Below, piece after piece: positions 47,079-47,806 of a stretch of 64,000 bases of DNA. The DNA lies in assembly GCF_002095435.2 (NCBI RefSeq), contig NZ_MJEJ02000037.1, positions 1-64,000 on the forward strand, read 5' to 3'. Every line of letters starts with the position of its first letter. The first letter of the stretch is position 1. The notes under the pieces are model-generated. The model searched no databases. It saw only the letters and a program-made list of their open reading frames with translations, and had not been told where the DNA came from. Source of the stretch: Williamsia sp. 1138 (GTDB lineage: Bacteria; Actinomycetota; Actinomycetes; Mycobacteriales; Mycobacteriaceae). The position numbers and the translations under genes are program-made.

Positions 47079-47681
47079 ATGACCCTGCACCCGTTGCTCG
47101 CCGGCCGGTGGAGTGCCCGCGGCTACGATCCGGCCGCCGAGATCGCGCCGACCGCACTCGAAGCGATCCTCGAAGCGGGTCGTTGGGCTCCCACCGGCGG
47201 CGGCGTGCAACCGGTGCGTTTCATCGTCGGGCTTCGCGGAGATGTGACGTTCACCGGAATCGTCGACGGCCTCAAACGAGGCAATCAGTCGTGGGTACCG
47301 GCAGCCGCGGCTGTGATCGTGCTGTGCACGACAGACCAACCCGACGAGCCGAAGATGCACGACTACGGCGCCATCGATGTCGGCCTGGCTGCCGGTCAGA
47401 TGATCATCCAGGCCCAGGCCGAGGGCTTGAACGCGCACCCGCTCGGCGGATTCCGGTCCGACGCGCTGACCGACCGGTTCACCATCCCCGCGGGCATGCG
47501 ACCGCTGCTGATCCTGGCGATCGGGCGGATCGCCGACGCGCTCACCGTCGACCCCGACATCGCCGAGCGTGACCGTCGCCCTCGGACCCGACTGCCGCTC
47601 GCCGAGATCACCTATGCAGACAGCTGGGGTGCCCCATTCAGTTCTGGGGGCACCTTTGGACTTCCCGAGGTTGCGGAGTAG
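47079..47681 (+). CDS. Nitroreductase-family flavoprotein
   Basis: A 200-residue protein. The N-terminal [12 protein letters not shown] and [20 protein letters not shown] correspond to the FMN-binding R-S-x-R and P-S-x-x-N-x-Q region of nitroreductases; the family's central [23 protein letters not shown] is also present. GGAG lies nine nt before the ATG at 47079. Pairing with a multidrug exporter suggests handling of nitro- or quinone-type toxicants. The leuA promoter overlaps its last codons. Confidence 0.82.
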
Positions 47682-47684
47682 AGT
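47656..47684 (+). promoter_or_regulatory. leuA leader promoter (apparently leaderless start)
   Basis: TTGGAC (47656-47661), a 17-nt spacer and TAGAGT (47679-47684) fit a housekeeping promoter. Seven nt separate the -10 box from the ATG of the leader peptide at 47692, so transcription should begin at or one base before that ATG. The promoter lies at the very end of the nitroreductase gene. Confidence 0.65.
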
Positions 47685-47691
47685 CCAAAAA

Positions 47692-47733
47692 ATGCAGCGC
47701 GTGCTCCTTCTCCTCTGCCGCGGCGGGGTCTGA
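47692..47733 (+). CDS. leuL: leuA leader peptide (four consecutive Leu codons)
   Basis: A 13-residue frame reads [13 protein letters not shown] and then stops. It has four Leu codons in a row (CTC CTT CTC CTC) and lies 73 nt upstream of leuA. This is the classic form of an attenuator leader: with scarce Leu-tRNA the ribosome pauses in the Leu run and changes folding of the following RNA. There is no Shine-Dalgarno because the message appears to begin at the ATG. Confidence 0.85.
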
Positions 47734-47736
47734 TCC

Positions 47737-47776
47737 AGACCGGCTTCCCGTCGCGGGTTTTGTGACGCGCCGGTCT
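47737..47776 (+). promoter_or_regulatory. leuA attenuator structures
   Basis: AGACCGGC (47737-47744) pairs exactly with GCCGGTCT (47769-47776). Within it lies CCCG-TCG-CGGG (47747-47757) followed by TTTT, a short terminator-like hairpin. The outer pair begins three nt after the leader stop codon, so a ribosome paused in the Leu run or finishing at the stop would influence it. Which fold terminates and which relieves termination is inferred. Confidence 0.55.
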
Positions 47777-47806
47777 CTTGCCCCACAACCGGAGAGTTTG
47801 ACCCCC

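Follow-up and report, generated by a model that had tools for sequence, protein, structure and literature searches.

Leader peptides read without a ribosome-binding site are reportedly part of the attenuation of ilvBNC in Corynebacterium glutamicum (Morbach, 2000), and leaderless short ORFs encoding polycysteine are said to occur in mycobacteria (Canestrari, 2020). Judged by their titles, these systems also place a leader peptide lacking a ribosome-binding site at biosynthetic genes, but involve other amino acids than the system described here; the LEU pseudoknot is named in neither title.

The closest described system is the LEU element found before leuA in Actinobacteria, whose leader peptide and pseudoknot were published in 2005 (Seliverstov et al., PMC1262725). 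That account, in the parts bearing on leuA, gives no location of the element other than upstream of leuA and within one transposase gene, and proposes a stem between the Leu run and the Shine-Dalgarno sequence together with a binding protein; leaderless initiation is not treated there. In Streptomyces lividans, a leaderless Leu leader before leuA (leuL1, MRFGLLLLSCRGEGL) has a transcript start assigned from RNA-seq; a typical Rho-independent terminator reportedly does not occur there (PMC8079986). The pseudoknot is not mentioned in the passages on leuL1, and the same source lists leaderless leader peptides at leuS, ilvB, trp, metN and thrS. The leuA leaders of C. glutamicum and C. diphtheriae (MTSRANLLLLRRGGSQRS and MNRANLLLLRRGGSQA) contain four Leu codons and are described as acting by transcription attenuation, with no RNA start assigned in C. 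diphtheriae in the sections concerned (PMC4046766, PMC8709942, PMC5784534); a leaderless leader peptide has also been reported at C. diphtheriae ilvB. Neither the mutants of S. coelicolor nor the binding protein predicted in 2005 has settled how leucine is sensed at actinobacterial leuA (PMC1262725).

Here we describe the leuA leader of Williamsia sp. 1138, which is an ordinary example of the LEU element, and its relatives before other genes, in which the pseudoknot is kept and the codons are changed. The sister elements with exchanged codons deserve most attention, as they make the question of leucine sensing directly testable.

The leuA leader and its promoter

The window, a 64,000-nt stretch of the Williamsia sp. 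1138 genome (NZ_MJEJ02000037.1, positions 1 to 64,000, forward strand), includes leuA and the leader features listed in Table 1. The nearest named relatives of its LeuA are those of Gordonia asplenii (86%) and Williamsia herbipolensis (85%), in a comparison from which the records of this or very near genomes may be excluded; this places the window in a Mycobacteriales actinobacterium.

Table 1. Features of the leuA leader region (window coordinates) and loci with leuB-type elements.
Feature	Position or loci	Strand	Basis or remark
Nitroreductase-family ORF preceding the leader	47079..47681	+	Ends in a TAG stop overlapped by the -10 box
-35-like box TTGGAC of the leader promoter	47656..47661	+	Sequence; TTGGA equally spaced in 9/9 species of the genus
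-10 box TAGAGT (TANNNT), end 7 nt before the leader ATG	47679..47684	+	Sequence; positional enrichment in relatives
Leader peptide ORF, 13 residues	47692..47733	+	Sequence; RNA start predicted at or next to 47692
Sensor codons CTC CTT CTC CTC (Leu)	47704..47715	+	Sequence; codon choice unlike that of the LeuA coding sequence
Helix A 5' arm CCGCGGCGGG, part of the leader ORF	47718..47727	+	Helix comparison, covariation
Helix B 5' arm GACCGGC	47738..47744	+	Helix comparison, covariation
Helix A 3' arm CCCGTCGCGG	47747..47756	+	Helix comparison, covariation
Helix B 3' arm (B3) GCCGGTC	47769..47775	+	Covariation; may instead pair within the leuA untranslated region
Shine-Dalgarno-like GGAGAG of leuA	47791..47796	+	Sequence
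leuA, 2-isopropylmalate synthase, 618 aa	47807..49663	+	Pfam HMGL-like, IPMS_D2, LeuA_dimer
leuB-type elements, mixed Val/Ile/Leu leaders	L193 (=L254), L195 (=L252), L232, L235, L236 (=L258), L240, L243		
leuB-type elements, mixed Val/Ile/Leu leaders	L245, L248, L260 (=L310), L268, L269, L299, L301		

A preliminary description of this region had proposed promoter boxes TTGGAC and TAGAGT, 17 nt apart and ending 7 nt before the ATG of a leader with four Leu codons, and these coordinates are exact in the sequence (the gap spans 47685-47691, the leader ATG lies at 47692). The leader ends at a UGA (47731-47733) located 73 nt before the leuA ATG (47807), so that the locus shows a hallmark of the LEU element, a short ORF ahead of leuA that contains consecutive Leu codons. 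The motif TANNNT is the actinobacterial -10 box. A sigma-70 scan of the region detected no promoter, a result presumably explained by how little the boxes resemble the E. coli consensus.

The -35 box sits within the preceding nitroreductase-family ORF and the -10 box overlaps the stop codon of that ORF. The promoter is thus buried in the previous gene, as had been claimed, but this holds for the window and not as a general trait: the boxes occupy the same position in 9/9 species of the genus and overlap the upstream stop in just 4/9, and we dropped the overlap as a conserved feature.

Conservation of the predicted leaderless layout

The comparison set of 139 leuA loci, with only the best LeuA match of each genome used, was drawn from 59 of 61 relative genomes (30 loci and 29 stretches) and from 80 named loci; the two remaining genomes (G034 and G048) were omitted since their best matches are more distant LeuA homologues. 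Comparison of the leuA leaders of these relatives revealed a leader peptide and interleaved helices in all 139 loci (135 by pattern; L033, L039, L093 and L136 located by hand), with 122 distinct sequences among the elements and a run of at least three Leu codons in 137.

When leader starts were picked blind to the promoter, TANNNT ended 6-9 nt upstream of the start in 114 of 138 loci (the sequence upstream of L138 is too short to be scored); the commonest gap, found in 76 of the 138, was 7 nt, and 17 additional loci had a gap of 10 nt. In a dereplicated set of 51 loci, containing roughly one per genus and three genera twice, the box was found at 6-9 nt in 43, whereas 200 dinucleotide-shuffled sets gave 1.1 on average and never more than 5. 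Because the spacing lies far above the shuffled sets, the leaderless layout is regarded as a conserved feature, and the proposal that the leuA leader peptide is initiated on a leaderless message is well supported by comparison. The arrangement is not, as had been suggested, a seldom described one, given the 2005 publication of the leuA leader and pseudoknot (PMC1262725) and the leaderless leuL1 of S. lividans (PMC8079986).

A pseudoknot overlapping the end of the leader

Downstream of the Leu codons, helix A (10 bp), whose 5' arm encodes the CRGG part of the leader, and helix B (7 bp), whose 5' arm starts 4 nt past the leader stop, interleave their arms to form a pseudoknot that overlaps the end of the leader, as in the LEU element. 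Together with the Leu-run leader, an alternative hairpin and the location before leuA, this is what the locus has in common with the published element (PMC1262725). The ‘alternative hairpins’ originally proposed here correspond to two covarying helices, but are better described as a pseudoknot plus alternatives.

Across 51 near-genus-level sequences, 97.9% of 861 cells in helices A and B were paired, a measure favored by the derivation of the structure from the same sequences, and 8 of the 17 pairs had changed on both sides. None of 500 shuffles reached any of five measures, and slid versions paired in 31-60% of cells. Minimum free energy folding, which ignores pseudoknots, gave a window leader no better than its shuffles (z −0.91), and was discarded as uninformative. 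The leader, the promoter spacing, the helices and their covariation are established at the level of sequence and comparison.

Model R1 of the element matches 189/197 genomes of the class, some of which were used to build it. In a sample of the whole phylum, matches were present in 24/198 genomes, 17 of them within the class, and we rejected a phylum-wide reach. Two of the seven matches outside the class (G350 and G429) are leuA leaders; the other five (L187-L191, E 3e-4 to 1e-3) are weak, appear chance-like by eye and were not retained. leuA LEU elements occur at L174 and L177, in a family (f62) outside the class of the window. Rfam produced no match in the window at the gathering score, and none at E values up to 0.5 on the elements of L140, L141 and L195; given the presence of a match to the element in nearly all genomes of the class that were examined, routine annotation may miss it.

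Leucine codon choice

The Leu codons of the 139 leaders (CTC 237, CTT 169, CTG 23, CTA 2, TTG 1) differ from those of the LeuA coding sequence in 30 loci (CTG 771, CTC 231, TTG 42, CTT 13, CTA 4), CTC and CTT accounting for 406/432 in the former vs. 244/1061 in the latter. One isoacceptor reads both CTC and CTT, and together the two codons look like an anti-Shine-Dalgarno sequence.

The last Leu codon pairs with the leuA Shine-Dalgarno sequence in the minimum free energy fold of the window, and the Leu run of L001 has a z of −2.0. Tests of the ribosome-binding site were carried out on 109 of the 139 leuA loci (all except L031-L059 and L029). Pairing of the Leu run with the Shine-Dalgarno sequence had a median z of −0.3 against shuffled targets, with 9/109 loci below −1.64, and swapped partners equaled the own pairing in 71/300 and 44/300 cases. 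Across these loci, the base stem proposed in 2005 thus does not rise above chance against either shuffled or swapped partners.

Sister elements before a stand-alone LeuA regulatory domain

Searching the genome of Williamsia sp. 1138 with R1 identified a second element (L141:1501-1579, minus strand, corresponding to G000:C35:239876-239954; 42.5 bits, E 2.7e-6), the next match having an E value of only 0.09. Model R2, built from 29 sequences including L141, found the same two elements and nothing else below E 0.3; as L141 was in the training set, the R2 match in L197 is partly by construction. The leader of the second element, MKRILVVRTRSGV, is preceded by TANNNT at 9 nt; with a GGAG located 5 nt from the ATG as well, a leadered start is possible for this copy.

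Behind the second element lies a gene encoding a 151-aa protein, located beside a thiE-like gene. A TPP riboswitch (Rfam RF00059, 58.5 bits; L141:2336-2453, plus strand) is found nearby, upstream of what by eye is a thiO-like ORF, and divergent from thiE. The single 151-aa sequence has no Pfam match, and its NCBIfam match to LeuA is sub-threshold, but a profile of 26 orthologues, searched against solved structures, matches the regulatory domain of Mycobacterium tuberculosis LeuA (1SR9, E 2.6e-9). Matches to this protein are present in 36/61 relatives, four of these 36 being inside LeuA itself.

A pseudoknot match lies upstream of the stand-alone-domain gene in all 30 loci fetched (E ≤1.4e-4), and in 26/30 a leader with TANNNT 6-10 nt upstream could be parsed by script, the typical codon string being [I/L/V]LVV. 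In this set, 95.2% of the cells of helices A and B are paired and 4/18 pairs have changed on both sides, with 1-8 of 500 shuffles as high; covariation is thus weaker than in the leuA set.

In the stand-alone-domain loci, B3 and the bases following it can pair with the ribosome-binding region, e.g. GGUCAUCC with GGAAGACC. Compared with shuffles, this pairing has a median z of −1.96, with 17/30 loci below −1.64. Swap tests, which leave shared ancestry in place, covered 22 of the 30 loci (eight from the genus of the window were left out): 2/500 swaps were as good as the own ribosome-binding region, and the best pairings touched a Shine-Dalgarno-like triplet in 20/22 loci, a count that has no control of its own.

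Sister elements before leuB and gene-matched sensor codons

For leuB, 50 of 93 genomes with a match were surveyed (the 30 best-matching loci and 20 from further down the list, some loci already examined being omitted); the query came from an element-bearing genome, so this sample is not random. A scan over 700 nt for the combination of leader, TANNNT and the two helices was positive in 7/50 loci, and in 0/1140 shuffled regions. R2 identified six leuB elements among the first 30 loci, including L260, which carries the leuB-type leader MQWSVRILSCRGGAR and was missed by the scan because its element lies ∼670 nt upstream of leuB. Scan and R2 together yield elements at 8/50 loci; selected second copies added another seven cases, one of them in a genome already counted. 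The leuB leaders mix Val, Ile and Leu codons, e.g. MARQLVILSSRGEFR, MQWAVRILGCRDGVR and MRQVLVLITCRGGA (Table 1). By eye, a very short ORF ending like QESMDRRDNGG is found between the element and leuB at L193, L195, L232, L235, L236, L248 and L310.

Leaders of the three gene classes were compared using the 122 leuA leaders that have a TANNNT box, 27 of the 30 stand-alone-domain leaders and 12 distinct leuB leaders. LLL is present in 120/122, 0/27 and 0/12 of these, respectively, VV in 1, 24 and 1, and the tail is preceded by Ile or Val in 53, 27 and 12. Among the stand-alone-domain leaders, L209, L216 and L225 could not be parsed (the first two have no LVV pattern by eye), L220 was added by eye, and the parsed leaders L212 and L219 end before the usual tail.

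On the sequence evidence, the codons follow the downstream gene while the pseudoknot persists, and the same pseudoknot with other sensor codons, before the stand-alone-domain gene and, in other families, before leuB, goes beyond the 2005 description (PMC1262725). A literature search, with most subscription journals outside its scope, returned no paper on a stand-alone LeuA regulatory domain or on Val-type leader strings, and leuB occurred in none of the papers listed in a search that included it. We lean towards the view that all of these elements belong to one family of leaderless or nearly leaderless pseudoknot leaders, with codons matched to the gene, that would serve as ribosome-gated translational switches sensing charged tRNA, B3 alternating between pseudoknot pairing and a hairpin in which the ribosome-binding site is concealed, at least in the stand-alone-domain class.

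A proposed switch at leuA

For the leuA locus itself, we consider it probable that a LEU element with a leaderless start responds to stalling at the Leu codons by remodeling the pseudoknot, starvation opening leuA through translation. The conserved promoter spacing suggests a transcription start on the leader AUG or only a few bases away from it; with the RNA starting there, a ribosome would begin the leader without a Shine-Dalgarno sequence. When charged tRNA-Leu is scarce, this ribosome would stall on the Leu codons and cover the 5' arm of helix A, allowing helix B to form. When leucine is plentiful, it would read on to the UGA and there block the 5' arm of helix B, which lies 4 nt away. Depending on which arm is blocked, B3 would either remain part of the pseudoknot or become available for pairing downstream, close to the ribosome-binding site of leuA; starvation would therefore open leuA and plenty would close it.

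Stalling, the direction of the switch and its action on translation rather than termination are steps that we infer. In constrained folds of the window, the openness of the leuA AUG was 0.61, 0.64 and 0.21 with the ribosome at the Leu codons vs. 0.01, 0.01 and 0.00 with the ribosome at the stop, and the leuA Shine-Dalgarno sequence had no clear difference between the two positions. Pairing of the leuA B3 with the untranslated region was at chance level against shuffled targets (median z 0.06, 11/109 loci below −1.64). With swapped partners, and with ancestry shared among the loci, pairings to the ribosome-binding site were as good in 8/500 swaps for the 80 named loci and 38/500 for 21 genus representatives, while most of the swap signal came from the remaining untranslated region (0 and 2 of 500). 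The best B3 pairings touched a Shine-Dalgarno-like triplet in 55/80 and 13/21 loci. Control of leuA would more likely act through the ribosome-binding site than through termination, a preference to which the leuA loci themselves lend slight weight.

Among the alternatives, Rho-dependent premature termination, set by how far the leader ribosome travels, fares best, although we think it unlikely: it would account for control in a leader lacking an intrinsic terminator, and a Rho-type mechanism has been suggested for mycobacterial cys leaders (PMC1262725), but Rho alone leaves unexplained both the conserved pseudoknot and the pairing of B3 with the ribosome-binding region in the stand-alone-domain class.

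Classical transcription attenuation, in which plentiful leucine would let an intrinsic terminator, formed by helix A and the GUUUUG behind it, halt RNA polymerase before leuA, appears somewhat less likely still. A GC-rich helix A followed by GUUUUG is present in 5/9 species of the genus, including that of the window; at ilvB1 of M. tuberculosis, transcription is reportedly attenuated, yielding a leader RNA that is short and terminated (PMC13236596), and a review terms leuA of C. glutamicum attenuated (PMC8709942). Against this, a scan for terminator-like sites detected none at 47500-47900, TTTT occurs within 10 nt after helix A in just 20/139 leuA loci, the 19-nt interval between the arms of helix A holds the 5' arm of helix B, and leuL1 of S. 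lividans is likewise reported to be devoid of a typical Rho-independent terminator (PMC8079986). Mutations of leader codons in S. coelicolor leuA are also reported to have had some effect inconsistent with classical attenuation (PMC1262725), an observation that also weighs against the switch proposed above. The ‘attenuator’ of the preliminary description is unproven in the strict sense of the word.

We regard as improbable the 2005 proposal that the pseudoknot is the site of a regulatory protein (ML1624 orthologues), with the leader peptide secondary. In favor of a protein are the phylogenetic pattern, the mutations in S. coelicolor to which that paper refers (PMC1262725) and the wide occurrence of the element in the class. 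The sister elements, however, keep the pseudoknot, and depending on which gene follows, their Leu run is replaced by codons that mostly read [Ile/Leu/Val]-Leu-Val-Val or by a Val/Ile/Leu mixture. A protein blind to codons would need no such matching, so the exchange favors codon sensing over the binding protein.

Very improbable is a leadered start, with the RNA beginning upstream and GGAG at 47675-47678 serving as the Shine-Dalgarno sequence of the leader: GGAG, AGGAG or AGGA precedes the start in 38/122 loci, but is absent in 84/122, TANNNT spacing is strongly fixed, and the GGAG of the window stops 13 nt short of the ATG, lies upstream of where the RNA is predicted to start, and is by its position too distant for a normal Shine-Dalgarno sequence.

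Elements before other LeuA homologues

In both genomes omitted from the leuA set, an element lies directly upstream of the distant LeuA homologue, with the leaders MLVRGRLLLRHDGV (G034) and MRREVLILSCRGGA (G048). The latter (G048:C100:7920-7994, L309; R1 E 1.2e-12) is a mixed leader before a homologue that is 31% identical, and its sensor codons again contain no Leu run. LEU elements were also observed before second or divergent LeuA homologues at L192, L241, L242, L244 and L308 (the first four 55-59% identical), and at each of the five a TTGTCTGAG-type stretch precedes the -10 box.
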